A stretch of DNA of 54,603 nt, from contig CALKLO010000093.1 of the NCBI GenBank assembly GCA_937991945.1, positions 1 through 54,603 on the forward strand, read 5' to 3'. Shown piece by piece: positions 33,743-53,656 of this stretch (positions within the stretch are counted from its first letter, which is position 1; each line of letters begins with the position of its first letter). The stretch is from an uncultured Granulosicoccus sp. GTDB taxonomy: Bacteria > Pseudomonadota > Gammaproteobacteria > Granulosicoccales > Granulosicoccaceae. Under the pieces are notes generated by a model, which was not told where the DNA came from, made no database searches, and saw only the letters and a list, made by a program, of their open reading frames with translations. The position numbers and the translations under genes were made by a program.

Positions 33743-35446
33743 ATGGCAACGATTACACGGGCAGCTTATGCCGAAATGTTTGGTCCAACGACTGGCGATA
33801 GAGTCCGTCTGGCAGATACCTCACTGTGGATAAAAGTAGAAGACGATAAAACAACCTACGGAGAGGAAGTTAAATTTGGTGGTGGCAAGGTCATTCGTGA
33901 TGGCATGGGACAGTGTCAACTGGAATCTGCCGACATCGTGGATACGGTTATCACCAATGCGCTCATAGTCGATCATTGGGGCATCGTTAAAGCAGACGTG
34001 GGTCTTAAAGGTGGCCGAATACACGCCATTGGTAAAGCAGGCAACCCTGATATACAGCCTGCGGTTACCATCGCGGTAGGTCCGGGTACGGAGGTTATCG
34101 CGGGTGAGGGCATGATCCTGACTGCGGGTGGCATTGACGCGCACATCCACTTTATATGTCCACAGCAAATCGAAGAAGCGCTGTGCTCGGGTATAACAAC
34201 GATGTTGGGTGGTGGGACGGGGCCTGCAACAGGCACCAACGCGACAACGTGTACTCCGGGTCCTTGGCATATCCACCGTATGTTGCAAGCATCGGATGCC
34301 TTCACCATGAACTTAGGTTTTTTGGGTAAAGGCAATGCCAGCCTTCCTGGCCCATTGCGCGAGCAGATAACCGCAGGCGCCATTGGCCTTAAGCTGCACG
34401 AAGATTGGGGCACAACGCCTGCAGCTATTGACTGCTGCTTAGGCGTTGCAGACGAAATGGATATACAAGTGGCGATACACACCGATACGCTGAATGAATC
34501 GGGTTTTGTTGAGCATTCACTGGCGGCCATGAAAGGGAGAACGATTCACACCTATCACACTGAAGGTGCGGGTGGCGGCCATGCTCCTGACATTATCAAG
34601 GCTTGTGGGCAACCGAATGTTCTTCCGTCGTCAACCAATCCAACACGTCCCTACACGATCAACACTATCGACGAGCATTTGGATATGCTGATGGTCTGCC
34701 ATCATCTAGACCCCTCTATCGCAGAAGACGTGGCTTTTGCAGAGTCTCGTATTCGCCGTGAAACCATTGCTGCTGAAGACATATTGCAAGATCTAGGTGC
34801 CTTCTCCATGATCGCGTCCGATTCTCAAGCGATGGGGCGAGTGGGCGAAGTGGTTTGCCGTACCTGGCAGACGGCTCATAAAATGCGCGAGCAGCGAGGG
34901 TCTTTAGCAGGCGACCCGCGCGATTCAGACAACGAGCGTGTTAAACGATACATCAGTAAGTACACAATCAATCCGGCTATTAGCCATGGTATCGCCCACG
35001 AAGTAGGCTCAGTTGAAGTGGGTAAGCTTGCCGATCTTGTTTTATGGAAGCCAGCATTTTTTGGTAGTAAGCCGACAATGATTATCAAAGGTGGAATGAT
35101 AGCAACGGCTGCCATGGGTGATCCTAATGCTTCAATTCCAACACCTCAACCGGTTCATTACCGGCCAATGTTTGCAGCGTTTGGTGGGGCGCGATCATCT
35201 ACGTCATTAACGTTTCTTTCAGAGGCCGCCTTACAAGCTGATGTTGCAGGTCAGCTGGATTTAAAACACAACGTTGCAGCTGTTAAGAATTGCCGAGAAA
35301 TTGGTAAAGCTGACATGATCAGAAACGATTGGCAGCCAGATATAAGCGTTGATTCACAAACGTATCAAGTCAGAGCAGACGGAGAGCTCTTGGAATGTGA
35401 GCCTGCGACATCCTTACCGTTAGCCCAGCTATATCAATTGTTTTAA
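33743..35446 (+). CDS. ureC: Urease alpha (catalytic) subunit
   Basis: A 567-residue urease catalytic subunit from ATG 33743, which has AGGAGAAG upstream; ATG 33692 lies inside ureAB and is not the real start. Nickel ligands and active-site residues fall at the canonical Klebsiella positions: H134 and H136 (DAHIHF), the carbamylated K217 (GLKLHEDWG), H246 (AIHTD), H272 ([10 protein letters not shown]) and the flap H320 (MVCHHLD). It hydrolyses urea to ammonia and carbamate. All key residues are present, so it should be active. Confidence 0.97.
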
Positions 35447-46634: not shown

Positions 46635-46733
46635 ATATTGTCAATAGTGTGTAGGATTGCGCTCTAACATTACTTCTTGGCTGAGGACAAAGAATTCATG
46701 GAATAGTTCCTTGGACCTGCGTGTTATTGATGT

Positions 46734-47279
46734 ATGAGCCCGGCAAGAATCACCTTTGAAAAACAATTCAACCAAGAGTTAGACGCTTTGTGGCGATTTG
46801 GTTTTCGTCTTACCTTGGGTTCTGATGCGGCCTCGCGCTTAGTTGAAAAAACACTCGTAAGAGCTTTGGAGCAACGCCACACCAGTGCTTCCAGTAGTCA
46901 AGTTCGCAGTTGGTTGTTTCGATTAGCGCATCGTATCTGGCAGAATGAAATCAGAGTAAGGCATCTTCGATTGTTGCCCTCTTTAGGTGCAGATAGCCCA
47001 ATGCTAGCCTTGCAAAGCTCTACGCACGACTCAGGCTCTTTGCCCCAAACTTATTCGTTGATGGATCAATTGCCGGAAGCTCAGCGGCTCGTTGTTTTAT
47101 TAGTTTATGGTGAAAGATTTTCCTATAGTGAAGTAGGTGAAATACTCGATATATCGGTTGCAACTGTTAAAAGTCGTTTAGTTTGTTCACTGCTTGTCAT
47201 CGGACGTTCACAAAAGCAGGCATCGCTAACAAGCCATTCACACCAGGAGATTCACGCAACAAGGGTCAAAGCTCCTTGA
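46734..47279 (+). CDS. ECF-type RNA polymerase sigma factor-like protein, copy 1 (degenerate)
   Basis: A 181-residue protein with sigma-2 (about 10-80) and sigma-4 (about 110-165) regions, homologous to the two following genes: LDALWRFGFRLT, VRALEQ, RSWLFRLAHRIW, NEIR and LPEAQRLVVLL. Conserved polymerase- and DNA-contact residues are altered. The DLVQ motif of region 2 is RLVE here, and the basic end of the region 4 recognition helix (SRLARAR in copy 3) is SRLVCSL. It may be a decoy, a regulator of its paralogues, or decaying. A palindrome GGAATAGTTCC lies at 46700-46710 just upstream. Confidence 0.75.
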   Translation: MSPARITFEKQFNQELDALWRFGFRLTLGSDAASRLVEKTLVRALEQRHTSASSSQVRSWLFRLAHRIWQNEIRVRHLRLLPSLGADSPMLALQSSTHDSGSLPQTYSLMDQLPEAQRLVVLLVYGERFSYSEVGEILDISVATVKSRLVCSLLVIGRSQKQASLTSHSHQEIHATRVKAP

Positions 47280-47465
47280 GGGCTAGCGCAGTCTATGTAA
47301 TCGACTCTATGAACGACGATATAAATACTAACTTCAATAAGAGGCTTGTTAGTGACTGCAATATCTTGGGTGGGTATGTGCAGACGTAAAAATGTTACAA
47401 AAAAGTGATATTTTGAGTCGCACCTCTAATGTGCTAACTAGTCATACTGACTTAGCAATCAGTGA

Positions 47466-48029
47466 ATGACGCAGACAATGCCAATCCAAGAAAATGATTT
47501 CGCGGAAAATATGAAGCAAGAGCTGACTGCATTGTGGAGATTCTCCCTGAGGTTGACCGCTAACACGGATGACGCTTCGGATCTTGTTCAAAGAACCTGT
47601 GTCAGGGCGCTTGAGCAACAGGAGAGCTATCTCGCCAACGAGGAGTTTCGTAGCTGGATTTTTCGGATTCAACACCGGATTTGGCTCAATGAAATGCGGT
47701 CTAGAAAAATTCGTAGCCATTGTGTCACTGATACGCTCACAGCAAATATCGAAGCATCAGATGAGCTTCTCGCATCTTGGGTTTGCGGTTGTTCGGGTCT
47801 TGTATTGGAGGCAGACTACTGTCTAACTCAAGTCAGTGCCGCTGTTGAGCAACTACCTGAGGCTCAACGTCTCATTACCTTGTTGGTAGTTGTTGAGGGG
47901 TTAAGCTATGCGCAAGCTGCAAAGGTGCTTGATGTTCCAGTGAAAACCATAATGAGTAGATTAGCCAGAGCCAAAGTTACCATCGGGCGTAAGCGGATTG
48001 TAAAAGAGCCTTCGGACGTCGCACAGTGA
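47466..48029 (+). CDS. ECF-type RNA polymerase sigma factor, copy 2
   Basis: A 187-residue ECF sigma factor. Region 2 has DDASDLVQRTCVRALEQ and FRSWIFRIQHRIWLNEMR; region 4 has LPEAQRLITLLV and VLDVPVKTIMSRLARAKVTIGR. It is closest to copy 3, and the two share an identical 16-base stretch (47700-47715 and 48802-48817), so they are a fairly recent duplication. The linker between the two regions contains an unusual Cys-bearing ASWVCGCSG segment absent from copy 3. No anti-sigma gene follows directly. Confidence 0.83.
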   Translation: MTQTMPIQENDFAENMKQELTALWRFSLRLTANTDDASDLVQRTCVRALEQQESYLANEEFRSWIFRIQHRIWLNEMRSRKIRSHCVTDTLTANIEASDELLASWVCGCSGLVLEADYCLTQVSAAVEQLPEAQRLITLLVVVEGLSYAQAAKVLDVPVKTIMSRLARAKVTIGRKRIVKEPSDVAQ

Positions 48030-48573
48030 AGGATCAAGTAATGGGTTTGGTGCTTCTTGCTGGACGATGCATGTACAAGGAGATAGCGGGGCTGCTTCAG
48101 TTCCTCCATTTGATGGTGTCGAAAGAGTTTGCTCGGTAGATACATTGACGAGATTGCGTGCGAGTAAACATAGTTGTCTCCAATGTGGTGATAAAAGTAT
48201 CGGCAGCATGTCAGTGCGCTAATACAAGTACTGTTTGCTCAGTCTTGCAAATCATGTGAAAAGGCGTGGAATAAAATCACTAGCTAAGGTGTTTTGAGAG
48301 CGAGACCCAAGTATTGACCGATTTTGGGATGCCGCTAAGGGATACACTGTCGTCACAGAACTCATGTATGCGTAACCCAATTTAGGGGTGCGAACTTATG
48401 CCTCCGAGGGGGTTGTCTCTGAGTTAGTGGTGGTGGCGCAACTGACCATAGGTGTGGAGTAGTTGTCAGTGTGGGTAACACGTTTTCGGGAAGTAATATG
48501 TACGGTAAGCAAGTATTGAAATTCACCGAGTTTGCCATTGTGCTGGCAAGCTTCAAGATCAGAAGATAATTAC
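48030..48573 (+). other. 544-base gap between sigma copies 2 and 3
   Basis: No convincing gene is seen. Two tiny open frames start here: GTG 48026 to TAG 48139 (37 residues, its GTG overlapping the copy 2 stop as GTGA) and ATG 48067 to TAA 48222 (51 residues, with one CxxC, CLQC). Neither resembles a known family or an anti-sigma factor. The remainder probably contains the promoter of copy 3, but I see no clear -35/-10 pair. Confidence 0.3.
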
Positions 48574-49146
48574 ATGGACGCATTAGGCGATGATGTTGCG
48601 AGTTTGCTTGAATCTGAGCTGAATGCGCTGTGGCGATTCGCCCTTAGGCTGACGGCTGATAGTGACGATGCTGCTGACTTAGTCCAGCGAACTTGTCTGA
48701 GAGCCCTTGAGCAGCAGCATAATTACCATCACAATCCTGCTGGGAAATTTAGAAGTTGGCTTTTTCGAATTGAGCATCGTATTTGGCTTAATGAGCTTCG
48801 CTCTAGAAAAATTCGTAATCACAGTTCCTTAAATGCCTCAAATTCAGCGGTTGAGTTCGAATCAGGACGTCTTTCTCCGCTTGGTCACGATGGTCCCGTT
48901 GATGCAATGGAAACCACGCACTATCTTTCTCAGGTCTGCGAGTTTGTTGAGCGCCTGCCGGAGGCGCAAAGGTTGGTCCTACAACTTGTCAGTGTGGAAG
49001 GGTTTAGTTATGGCGAAGCAGCAGAGGTATTAGACGTTCCAATTGGTACCATTATGAGTCGACTTGCTAGAGCGCGAGTCACTATTGGGCGATTCCGACT
49101 TGAGAGTGCTCTGCCAATGGTTTCCCAAAAAACGAACCTTATCTAA
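48574..49146 (+). CDS. ECF-type RNA polymerase sigma factor, copy 3
   Basis: A 190-residue ECF sigma factor from ATG 48574 (TTG 48532 would add 14 residues). Region 2 has DDAADLVQRTCLRALEQ and FRSWLFRIEHRIWLNELR; region 4 has LPEAQRLVLQLV, GFSYGEAAEVLDVPIGT and IMSRLARARVTIGR. All usual core-contact and DNA-contact features look intact. It is followed after 70 bases by the anti-sigma-like membrane protein, which is probably its partner. It directs a stress or envelope regulon that I cannot define. Confidence 0.87.
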   Translation: MDALGDDVASLLESELNALWRFALRLTADSDDAADLVQRTCLRALEQQHNYHHNPAGKFRSWLFRIEHRIWLNELRSRKIRNHSSLNASNSAVEFESGRLSPLGHDGPVDAMETTHYLSQVCEFVERLPEAQRLVLQLVSVEGFSYGEAAEVLDVPIGTIMSRLARARVTIGRFRLESALPMVSQKTNLI

Positions 49147-49216
49147 TTGTGAGTATGAGCGCGTTAAACCTACCGATTGTTAACAATCGCTGTCTTCAAG
49201 ATGTGAGTAAAAACGT

Positions 49217-50065
49217 ATGAATCCAACAGATGACGACTTAGTGCTCTATGCAGAAGGTGTTCTAAGTCAAGAACGTAGACAACAATTGATTGATGCGTCG
49301 AAAAACAACCCTGATTTGGCAGAAACATTGGCAGCCTTGGATGCGTCACGATTACCGTTCAAGCAAGCGTTTGACCAACAGGCTGTGCCGGCTGTGCCAG
49401 ATGCGCTAAAGAATTCGGTTCGCGATCTGATAAAAGAAAACGCTGAAAACAATCTCATTTCGGTGAGGGATAAGTCTACGTTTTCTCAATGGCCGTTGCG
49501 GTTTGCACAGGCTGCTTGTCTTGCGCTTTGCATTGGTGCTGGATACGTAACGGGGATAACCCAAGGTGACAATTTGAGTTTGGTTGCAGGTGGCGACACA
49601 GACACCGCAGGCCAGGGCGCAAACGCTGATTTACAAGTTGCCTGGGTTCAACGAGTGGTGGATTATCAGTCGCTCTATGTGGCTAATACTGTTGGAAATG
49701 TTGAGGTCGATCTCAACGCAAGTCTTCGCCAGCTGGAAAAACTGAGTGAGTCCTCAGGGATGCGGACTGCAATACCTGATTTAAGTGAGGCAGGGTACAC
49801 GTTTACCCGTGCCCAAGAGTTGGGTTTTGATGGCACGCCTTTAGTGCAGCTGGTTTACACAAAGGAAGGCCATACGCCTTTGGCCTTATGCTTTATGCCT
49901 GCTGATGGCGACAGCGATCAAGCCGCTAACATCGCGCAACAGCGCGGATTAGGTGCGGTCGATTGGATTGTTGATGACCAACGCTTTGTAATAGTGGCTG
50001 ATGAGAGTGTCGAAGCAATGGAAAGATTGTACAAAGCCACACAGGGTGTTTTTTCTGACGTCTAA
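49217..50065 (+). CDS. Membrane-anchored anti-sigma factor-like protein
   Basis: A 282-residue protein. The N-terminal ~90 residues are soluble and acidic, beginning DDDLVLYAEGVLSQERRQQL, like cytoplasmic anti-sigma domains. One transmembrane helix lies at about 93-112 (FAQAACLALCIGAGYVTG), and a periplasmic domain of ~160 residues follows. The HxxxCxxC zinc motif of ZAS anti-sigma factors is missing. It stands alone behind three sigma paralogues and could hold one or more of them inactive until a periplasmic signal arrives. A small GCCTG/CAGGC hairpin at 50074-50086 follows the gene. Confidence 0.75.
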   Translation: MNPTDDDLVLYAEGVLSQERRQQLIDASKNNPDLAETLAALDASRLPFKQAFDQQAVPAVPDALKNSVRDLIKENAENNLISVRDKSTFSQWPLRFAQAACLALCIGAGYVTGITQGDNLSLVAGGDTDTAGQGANADLQVAWVQRVVDYQSLYVANTVGNVEVDLNASLRQLEKLSESSGMRTAIPDLSEAGYTFTRAQELGFDGTPLVQLVYTKEGHTPLALCFMPADGDSDQAANIAQQRGLGAVDWIVDDQRFVIVADESVEAMERLYKATQGVFSDV

Positions 50066-51630: not shown

Positions 51631-52188
51631 ATGTACGGACTGGTAAATAAAGCGGTCGAGCAGTTGGTTAAAGTCAACTTCGGCGACGAGAGGTGGCAGG
51701 AAATTGCGAAGAAGGCTGGCGTTGACCAAACGTTTATCATGATGAAGCCTTACCCGGATCAAGTAACCTTTGATTTGGTTGCCGCAGCGAGCGAAGTGCT
51801 GGAAACACCTGCAGAGGATATCTTAGAAGCATTTGGTGAGCATTGGATCCAATTCACTGTCGATGAAGGCTATGGCAAGACCATGTCTTTATACGGTGAT
51901 TCTGTACTTGAGTTCCTGCAGAATATGGACAGCTTGCATGCTCAGATCCGATTGACTTTCCCTGAACTACGTCCACCTAAAATTTCCTGTGAGCAGAAAC
52001 CAAACGGCCAATTAGTAGTCAGCTACCAGTCGGAACGTGCAGGCTTAGCCCCGATGCTTGTGGGGTTGGTCAGAGGGCTAGGTAAGCGCTTTTCTACTCC
52101 GGTAGAGGTTGAATACTTGCCATGCACTGACACCGATTCAACGAGTGAAAATTTCCTTGTGACGTTCGCGCAGCAGCAGGTTGCTTAG
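51631..52188 (+). CDS. H-NOX heme nitric-oxide sensor protein
   Basis: A 185-residue stand-alone H-NOX domain. The proximal heme ligand is His103 (MDSLHAQI), the YxSxR heme-propionate motif is Y132-S134-R136, and the conserved Pro115 is present. The distal-pocket Tyr near residue 140 that supports O2 binding in some H-NOX proteins is not seen (Gly-Leu-Ala-Pro there), so it should be a selective NO sensor. It lies seven bases before its sensor kinase gene, and H-NOX proteins are known to control the adjacent kinase. It ends in Val-Ala. Confidence 0.93.
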   Translation: MYGLVNKAVEQLVKVNFGDERWQEIAKKAGVDQTFIMMKPYPDQVTFDLVAAASEVLETPAEDILEAFGEHWIQFTVDEGYGKTMSLYGDSVLEFLQNMDSLHAQIRLTFPELRPPKISCEQKPNGQLVVSYQSERAGLAPMLVGLVRGLGKRFSTPVEVEYLPCTDTDSTSENFLVTFAQQQVA

Positions 52189-52195
52189 ATAATCT

Positions 52196-53656
52196 ATGAG
52201 CGCTTATTTCCACAATGATGAACTTAGTGATGCGATGCTGTCGCAAGCATTTCCCTTTCATTTGGTTATCAACGAATCGGGTGAAATTGTAAGTTGTGGG
52301 CAATCTCTAGCTCGTAAGCTCCAATTTAGCGACACTGAGGCTGTTCAACTATTTGATCATTTCACAGTGCAGCACCCATCTGAAATTTATGCTGTAGGCC
52401 AGTTGATTAATGTTAAAGATAAGTTGTTTCTACTTAACTCCACGTTTTATAAAGATCTGGTATTGAGAGGCCAACTCGTTGTTAGCAATGACGAAACGCA
52501 TTTTGTGTTTTTGGTATCTCCCTGGATAACAGATGTTGATGTGTTAGATAAATTGGGATTCACTCTAAACGACTTCCCCGTGCATAGCCCAATGTCAGAT
52601 TTTCTCATCTTGGTCCAAGCACAACGAGTTTCATTGAACGACAGTATGCGTTTGTCTGAAGAGTTAACTGTTTTGAACAAGGAATTGGAGGATAGAGTTT
52701 CAAGGCGAACTCAGGCGCTAGAGCTACAAGCGAATGAAATCCAAGAGTCAAAAGCTGTGCTCGAGCGAGAGATGAAGGAGCGTGAACGCGTTGAAGTTGA
52801 ACTTAGGCACGCGCAAAAATTGGAATCAGTGGGCCAGCTGGCAGCGGGTATTGCTCACGAAATAAACACGCCTATGCAATACATTGGCAGCAGTCTTGAA
52901 TTCCTTAAAGGTTCGTTTTCTGATCTTGAGTCACTCAATGCGATGATGAGCGACTACTTAGCGCAGGATGCCCTAGCGCAAGATTTTAAAAGCATTGAGC
53001 TGCAACGCTTTCTAAACGAAATTGATCTTGACTACCTTTGTGAGCGTGGTCCCAAAGCACTTACGCGCTCCTTGGATGGAATTGCCCGTGTCACTGAAAT
53101 AGTGGGTGCAATGAATGAATTTACGCACCCAGATAGAAAAGAGATGAATAGCGCTGATATTAATCGTGCGCTTGGCACTGTTATGACTGTTGCAAGCAAC
53201 GAATATAAGTATGTTGCAACCATAGAAACTGATTTTCAAGATCTGCCACTAGTTGACTGTTTTCTAGGGGATTTAAACCAAGTGTTCCTAAACTTAATTG
53301 TGAACGCGGCTCATGCTATCTCAGAAAATAACGTAGAAAATGGCGTTATAAAAGTGAGTACGCGAGTTCGGGAAGGCTTTGTTGTCGTCAGCGTTGCTGA
53401 CAATGGCACCGGTATTCCAAAACATATTCAACATAGAATATTTGACCCGTTTTTTACGACTAAAGAAGTTGGGCGTGGCACTGGTCAAGGGCTGTCAATT
53501 TCGCACAGCATCATTACGGAAAAACACAGAGGGCAGCTGAGTTTTGAAACAGTTCCAAATGAGGGAACTACGTTTTCTATAGCACTGCCAATAACGGATA
53601 GTTCCACACAAGGCCTATCAACTAAGCCCGAGGATGGGAGAGATATAGCAGCATGA
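52196..53656 (+). CDS. H-NOX-associated sensor histidine kinase
   Basis: A 486-residue kinase without membrane segments. Residues 1-150 match the HNOBA (heme-NO-binding-associated) type of sensor domain (FPFHLVINESGEIVSCGQ). A coiled coil spans about 150-205. The HisKA domain has the phosphoacceptor H221 in GIAHEINTPMQYIG, and the HATPase domain has an N-box (LNLIVNAAHAI), DNGTGIP and GTGQGLSISH. NO-bound H-NOX is expected to change its autophosphorylation. It overlaps the response regulator gene by four bases (ATGA). It ends in Ile-Ala-Ala. Confidence 0.92.
   Translation: MSAYFHNDELSDAMLSQAFPFHLVINESGEIVSCGQSLARKLQFSDTEAVQLFDHFTVQHPSEIYAVGQLINVKDKLFLLNSTFYKDLVLRGQLVVSNDETHFVFLVSPWITDVDVLDKLGFTLNDFPVHSPMSDFLILVQAQRVSLNDSMRLSEELTVLNKELEDRVSRRTQALELQANEIQESKAVLEREMKERERVEVELRHAQKLESVGQLAAGIAHEINTPMQYIGSSLEFLKGSFSDLESLNAMMSDYLAQDALAQDFKSIELQRFLNEIDLDYLCERGPKALTRSLDGIARVTEIVGAMNEFTHPDRKEMNSADINRALGTVMTVASNEYKYVATIETDFQDLPLVDCFLGDLNQVFLNLIVNAAHAISENNVENGVIKVSTRVREGFVVVSVADNGTGIPKHIQHRIFDPFFTTKEVGRGTGQGLSISHSIITEKHRGQLSFETVPNEGTTFSIALPITDSSTQGLSTKPEDGRDIAA

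Follow-up and report, generated by a model that had tools for sequence, protein, structure and literature searches.

Genes for extracytoplasmic function (ECF) sigma factors and their anti-sigma factors usually occur in pairs, and a locus in which three sigma genes precede a single anti-sigma gene raises the question of which of the three products this anti-sigma factor controls. The locus in question lies within a stretch of 54,603 nucleotides (here called the window) from an uncultured Granulosicoccus sp.; the window is contig CALKLO010000093.1 (C93) of a genome assembly of 3.83 Mb in 158 contigs, which is 97% complete. The list of open reading frames (ORFs) and the sequence place the sigma genes c1, c2 and c3 and the anti-sigma gene AS in a row, all on the forward strand (Table 1). 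A first-pass annotation had proposed that this array grew by duplication, and that one anti-sigma factor serves all three copies. We find it about evenly probable, on sequence grounds, that the array is an envelope-type ECF/anti-sigma module of the Granulosicoccaceae in which the sigma genes have come to outnumber the anti-sigma gene, AS governing c3 (and probably c2), with c1 as a degenerate accessory.

The region 4 family PF08281 was matched by c1, c2 and c3 with 46.6, 50.7 and 50.0 bits, respectively. The region 2 family PF04542 was matched by c2 (40.3 bits) and c3 (53.5 bits) above the cut-off of 24, whereas c1 (18.8 bits) remained under it; c1 did exceed the general model TIGR02937 (44.6 bits, cut-off 42.9). 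The closest NCBIfam model of c2 and c3 was PRK12511 (108.0 and 115.5 bits, both under the cut-off of 185). In a three-way alignment c1 shares 42% identity with c2 and 43% with c3, while local matches of c3 show 59% identity with c2 and 46% with c1. Within their own genome the three are closest to each other: the weaker of c1 and c2 was found with an E-value of 2.3e-31, against 4.4e-14 for the next ECF gene. The ORFs, Pfam matches and alignment confirm the first-pass description of three homologous tandem sigma genes with one anti-sigma-like gene behind them and, as far as the trees described below show, the three do not fall in unrelated groups. The start of c3 is most likely ATG 48574, rather than the TTG 48532 chosen by the ORF finder. 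AS had been said to follow the third copy directly; it is indeed the next gene, at a distance of 70 bases from the end of c3 and without overlap.

Related genomes follow a simple rule. A profile built from 18 anti-sigma factors matched 26 of 48 genomes of the family, including that of the window, and ECF and AS ORFs were inventoried in 31 loci, of which 30, among them the window, belong to these 26 genomes and one to a betaproteobacterial metagenome-assembled genome. Outside the window we identified 28 adjacent ECF-AS pairs (27 in 24 family genomes and one in the betaproteobacterial genome), 26 of which overlap by 1-13 bases, as judged from mechanically assigned ORF starts; the other two are separated by 2 bases (G065) and 85 bases (G058). 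The rule is therefore one ECF gene per AS gene. At locus L122 (same contig as G063:C152) two pairs stand in tandem, in the order E1-A1-E2-A2 (E, sigma gene; A, anti-sigma gene), and L003 of genome G030 reads E1-A1-E2 up to the contig end. The genes found unpaired outside the window were (i) on the anti-sigma side, a second AS gene in G028, two short AS genes in G030, two fragments in G017 and one fragment of 69 amino acids in G033, and (ii) on the sigma side, the E2 gene of G030, which ends near the contig edge, and a weak ECF match in L136. One of the 28 pairs contains an AS gene shortened to 124 amino acids (G017). With two unpaired ECF genes, the window is the most sigma-unbalanced of the 31 loci; the row of genes is real, and it is unusual among relatives. 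In its own genome (97% complete) the sole match to AS at an E-value of at most 1 was AS itself, so that this search, which covered homologues of AS, gave no sign of a distant anti-sigma factor belonging to one of the copies.

The three copies differ in what they keep of a canonical ECF sigma factor. Conservation was judged from 27 comparison ECFs (26 from the family and one betaproteobacterial), which share 41 columns with a conservation of at least 85%. None of these columns is broken in c3, six are broken in c2 and 15 in c1; the other two E1 proteins break 14 and 13, and the comparison ECFs 0 to 8. D32, D35 and Q38 are gone in all three E1-type proteins, c1 included; D32 and Q38 are present in each of the 27 comparison ECFs, 24 of which have D at position 35 and the other three E. 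In c1 the sequence AASR replaces the DAAD of c3, and E stands in place of Q38; c2 keeps both DxxD and Q38. According to two papers, DxxD docks ECF sigma factors onto the beta-prime subunit of the polymerase (PMC8999054; PMC13147305). R166 and R168 are lost in c1 alone among the E1-type proteins, and c2 has K at the place of R168. The latter residue aligns with R178 of E. coli RpoE if a 3-residue tag on the chain is assumed (arginine then stands at both positions named in the paper), and at this position c1 has L. RpoE R178 contacts D11 of RseA (PMC7406223); by eye, E13 of AS is an acidic residue at the place of RseA D11. The region 2 Pfam scores of the E1 proteins are 18.8, 19.2 and none listed, versus 41.3-57.6 in seven of the 27 comparison ECFs; for region 4 (PF08281) the ranges are 46.6-51.0 and, in the same number of comparison ECFs, 47.3-58.2.

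By these residues c1, c2 and c3 are not equivalent. Because core-docking and anti-sigma-contact residues are missing from it, c1 is probably a weak or non-transcribing accessory, situated outside or at the edge of AS control. This bears on the graded signalling of the first-pass annotation, in which all three, as functional sigma factors, would compete for the single AS. Such competition would suit the three homologous open frames, the single AS homologue of the genome and the retention by c2 of DxxD, Q38 and a positive residue (K) at the RpoE R178 place, but D32, D35, Q38, R166 and R168 are all missing from c1, and ECF anti-sigma factors are reported to be mostly partner-specific (PMC7406223). 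We consider it unlikely. With DxxD, Q38 and the RpoE R178-aligned residue lost, service of c1 by AS is doubtful, while AS may plausibly be shared by c2 and c3.

An excess of sigma paralogues over anti-sigma factors is known from the EcfG/NepR system of Methylobacterium extorquens and Rhizobium etli, where some EcfG paralogues are reported not to be bound by NepR (PMC4814048; PMC3892343). That system, however, consists of a soluble NepR and a partner switch with PhyR, whereas the genes described here form a tandem array with a membrane anti-sigma factor. PvdS and FpvI of Pseudomonas aeruginosa are two ECF sigma factors under one anti-sigma factor, a situation that a review terms unusual (PMC4598750). 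Unlike the present array, they serve siderophore cell-surface signalling. Nor are PvdS and FpvI known to form a tandem array of close paralogues.

When c3 was allowed to drift neutrally to 46% identity, the frame remained free of stops in 1 of 1000 or 0 of 1000 cases, depending on which of two counting methods was used. Differences among the copies are most frequent at third codon positions and rarest at second positions. On this comparison c1 is kept open by selection and is no long-dead gene. An array in decay, in which c1 and perhaps c2 are losing function, would account for the broken or orphan parts at related loci in G017, G028, G030 and G033 and for the branches of c1 and c2 (2.22 and 1.21), which are longer than that of c3 (0.39). 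It is nevertheless improbable, given that the frame of c1 is intact after much more change than neutral drift would allow and that an exact copy of the regulon motif described below precedes its start.

The lack of the region 2.2 DxxD motif is a feature that c1 shares with the ECF43 group (EcfP, EcfK), whose members without DxxD depend on phosphorylation, according to two papers (PMC8999054; PMC13147305). Ser34 of c1, within the lost motif, occupies the third motif position, at which EcfP and EcfK carry a phosphorylated threonine (same papers), and the genome contains three PF00069 matches. A search for a kinase partner on contig C93 found none of the three there, whereas ECF43 sigma factors are activated by a nearby Ser/Thr kinase, and their genes are described as near it (PMC8999054). 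Moreover, the Ser34 position is occupied by E and R in the other two E1 proteins, which, unlike ECF43, are paired with anti-sigma factors. The chance that c1 is phospho-activated is accordingly slight.

A different role is conceivable for a protein without core-docking residues, namely that of a sigma mimic. In one version, c1 makes no use of the core polymerase and titrates the anti-sigma factor, and induction of c1 would thereby exert positive feedback on c3. The absence of DxxD and Q38 from all three E1 proteins, whose region 4 scores are near the canonical range, the regulon motif before c1 and the retention of the RpoE R178-aligned arginine in the other two E1 proteins are what this version would predict of such a protein; in c1 itself, however, the arginine is replaced by L, and helix 4 of ASDI anti-sigma factors contacts a surface that overlaps regions 2.1 and 2.2 (PMC7406223). 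We regard titration by c1 as quite improbable. A broader version, which we hold to be rather unlikely, is that the whole E1 lineage, c1 included, is a stand-alone sigma mimic derived from a real ECF sigma factor, which lost core docking and would be retained under the promoter of the regulon itself, as a feedback element with an effect on the anti-sigma factor or on promoter occupancy. If true, this would mean that a partner switch arose within an array of tandem sigma genes and outside the PhyR system of the alphaproteobacteria. A PhyR-like identity of c1 is unsupported: the PhyR-type Pfam score is not specific to E1, and six of seven comparison ECFs equal or exceed the best E1 protein, which also counts against mimicry. 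Fold does not discriminate either, as the c1 model (mean predicted local distance difference test, pLDDT, 84.6) matches ECF sigma factors (best 5uxx, with NepR; E-value 1.3e-8) and also PhyR.

AS had no Pfam family above cut-off and matched NCBIfam NF052375 with an E-value of 4.6e-5 (23.5 bits, under the cut-off of 100). The HxxxCxxC motif of zinc-binding anti-sigma (ZAS) domains is absent from AS, as the first-pass annotation had stated; its cysteines are located at positions 101, 105 and 225. The structure predicted from an 18-row alignment (mean pLDDT 80.6) contains N-terminal helices at residues 5-12, 18-30, 32-54 and 62-78, one likely transmembrane helix at about residues 96-113, identified by eye where the confidence of the model is low, and a confidently modelled C-terminal domain (residues 172-282). 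This domain was matched by Foldseek to residues 218-315 of RseB (E-value 2.6e-4, probability 1.00), and the superposition gave a Z-score of 9.5 and a root-mean-square deviation (rmsd) of 2.4 over 95 aligned residues with 10% identity. Residues 1-72 gave a weak fold match to ChrR (Z 4.1, rmsd 9.0).

In the model, then, the periplasmic part of AS folds like the C-terminal domain of RseB/MucB. Two features would relate the module to RpoE-RseA-RseB of E. coli and AlgU-MucA-MucB of Pseudomonas: an ECF sigma factor held by a zinc-free membrane anti-sigma factor and, by the fold match, an RseB-type C-terminal domain in the periplasm. Two others set it apart, since the RseB-like domain lies within AS itself and not in a separate protein, and three sigma genes precede AS. 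Going by the fold match, AS would merge the roles of RseA and RseB in one protein. A literature search for an RseB-like domain within an anti-sigma factor found nothing relevant.

Motif discovery revealed AACA-N17-ATTC upstream of 11 of 26 ECF genes of relatives, whereas the commonest word in each of five shuffles reached 4 or 5; its other-strand form is GGAATA-N15-GTGTT. Exact copies of the latter occur at 15 sites in the 31 loci (368,725 bases), versus 0-1 in each of 20 Markov controls, and the spacer of 15 is preferred: within the range of 10 to 21, four sites have a spacer of 14, and the remaining lengths gave at most one site each. Exact sites precede both c1 and c3; when one mismatch was allowed, two or more sites in the window were also obtained in 10 of 100 shuffles. 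The 7-nt distance between the motif and the c1 start codon is repeated before the E1 genes of L122 (spacer 15) and L003 (spacer 14, with the ATG inside the longest ORF), which suggests that the messages of c1 and the other E1 genes may be leaderless. c2 is perhaps co-transcribed with c1.

The genome of the window contains seven exact sites, three inside ORFs and four before c1, c3, a CHRD lipoprotein gene and a YceI-like gene; the site of the YceI-like gene overlaps the start of the longest ORF and lies upstream of the start suggested by the L035 relative. In other genomes the motif occurs near the ECF pair before YceI genes (L031, L035), CHRD genes (L032, L046, L122) and DUF4399 genes (L168 and L169, by Pfam; elsewhere also L034, L040 and L041, by likeness to the Pfam-tested L033). 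A stricter form was found in 13 of the 26 family genomes with AS, versus two of the 22 without it (Fisher p 0.004, partly circular, since several are discovery sites). This form had four control sites in the 48 genomes, and the sites of the two AS-less genomes were both inside ORFs. Five of its sites are from outside the discovery set: that of L185 lies before a DUF4399-like gene, that of L188 before the gene of a secreted protein that we take to be spondin-like, and L181, L187 and L193 showed no such target gene. It is likely from this distribution that GGAATA-N15-GTGTT is a regulon promoter whose targets encode secreted CHRD, YceI-like and DUF4399 proteins. Literature searches on ECF sigma factors with YceI and CHRD, and on Granulosicoccus sigma factors, found nothing relevant.

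From gene content, promoter motif, residue losses and pairing rule we infer how the module may work. AS, composed of an anti-sigma domain, a transmembrane helix and an RseB-like periplasmic sensor, would keep c3, and probably c2, inactive at the membrane. A periplasmic signal would lead to the removal of AS, and c3 (and c2) would be freed to transcribe from GGAATA-N15-GTGTT promoters, with the CHRD lipoprotein gene, the YceI-like gene, the c3-AS operon itself and c1 (probably together with c2) as proposed targets. c1, the putative descendant of an E1 gene, would be kept under selection and induced with the regulon, without the residues for core docking and anti-sigma contact.

Since L122 still has the order E1-A1-E2-A2, the array most likely descends from two such tandem pairs that lost one of their anti-sigma genes and whose E2 gave rise to both c2 and c3 by duplication. 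Maximum-likelihood trees of the ECFs were built from 26 and 25 rows (supports are quoted in that order). c1 joined the two E1 genes of L122 and L003 (87/97 and 86/96), and c2 and c3 were sisters (92/82 and 91/82), in both cases under the starred level; the trees lean toward c1 as E1 and c2/c3 as a doubled E2 without deciding. Growth by duplication, as first proposed, is thus retained for c2 and c3; for the whole array, descent from two older pairs is the better reading. The 16-base stretch identical in c2 and c3, offered earlier as proof of duplication, is real but weak as such, given that 23 of 500 synonymous-codon permutations of c3 share at least 16 bases with c2. The anti-sigma gene missing relative to two pairs may be A1 or A2; the position of AS behind an E2-type sigma gene favours AS being A2. 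In the anti-sigma tree AS was placed with the A1 set (71/76), and a clade of AS with the A1 of L003 alone was rejected (p-AU 0.002 in the approximately unbiased, AU, test). Across several genomes, one family shows pairs that double, lose members and perhaps change role, and it supplies a promoter motif and candidate targets alongside the changing pairs. A general question can therefore be put to the test: what happens to a sigma factor that has lost its anti-sigma factor, and can a paralogue turn into a sigma regulator?

Several results weigh against a degenerate c1 in an array descended from two pairs. (i) One paired ECF of the family, L047, equals c1 in the number of broken region 2 columns (5, as in c1, 5 of 17), and another ECF of the own genome, L056, has, by eye, G at position 35 and H at the Q38 place, and therefore loss at 35 and 38 alone need not mean an inactive sigma factor; Q stands at the Q38 place in six of the seven other ECFs of that genome (also by eye). 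(ii) A single clade of c1, c2 and c3 was not rejected (p-AU 0.225), nor was a grouping of AS with the A2 set (p-AU 0.133), though AS groups with the A1 set, so that the AU tests are not decisive as proof of descent; moreover, the program flags the long branches of the E1 genes as possibly attracting one another. (iii) No trace of a lost anti-sigma or sigma gene was detected in the gaps of the window by tblastn, six-frame hidden Markov model (HMM) search or local alignment: the best tblastn match had an E-value of 0.003 (35 residues, 29%, opposite strand), the best six-frame HMM match an E-value of 1.2, and local alignments of the c3 leader with c1, AS and the c1 promoter region (200 shuffles each) were not above noise. 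(iv) Many of the loci in which sites of the motif were counted had also served to derive it, c2 lacks an exact regulon promoter of its own, and the count of seven sites in the own genome, against five in a reversed control, is not above chance; the genome-wide count was accordingly discarded as evidence.

Table 1. Positions of the genes, the altered motif and the predicted promoters of the array within the window
Feature	Position	Strand	Description
c1	46734..47279	+	Divergent E1-type ECF sigma paralogue, 181 aa (amino acids); region 2.2 motif degenerate, region 4 arginines lost
c1 residues 32-38 (AASRLVE)	46827..46847	+	c3 counterpart DAADLVQ (DxxD and Q, core-polymerase docking)
c2	47466..48029	+	E2-type ECF sigma; region 2.2 like c3; lysine at R168 place
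c3	48574..49146	+	E2-type ECF sigma; all 41 conserved comparison columns kept
AS	49217..50065	+	Anti-sigma factor, 282 aa, as suggested by a weak NCBIfam match, paired homologues, model and fold match
Predicted ECF promoter of c1	46700..46726	+	Exact GGAATA-N15-GTGTTA; -10 element ends 7 nt before c1 ATG
Predicted ECF promoter of c3-AS	48268..48294	+	Exact GGAATA-N15-GTGTTT; ends 279 bases before c3 ATG

Altered anti-sigma genes were also observed at related loci. The anti-sigma factors of G021 and G002 (L034, 7312-8070; L040, 6796-7527) are without most of the N-terminal anti-sigma domain, and their ECF partners are intact and overlapping. In L046 (6528-8063) of G017 one AS is present as two fragments; the other, of 124 amino acids, has kept the anti-sigma domain and lost the membrane part, and could yield a soluble anti-sigma factor. 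In L030 (12030-13083) of G028 an A1-type anti-sigma gene stands behind a regulon-type promoter, with no E1 gene present; here it is seemingly the sigma copy that is gone, not the anti-sigma factor.

Two further features of the window were recorded. Positions 33892-34178 on the reverse strand match Rfam RF02514 (5' ureB small RNA) over its full length (103.7 bits), and positions 51631-53656 encode first a haem-NO-binding (HNOB) protein and then a histidine kinase that carries an HNOB-associated domain, which are likely a nitric oxide (NO)-sensing pair.

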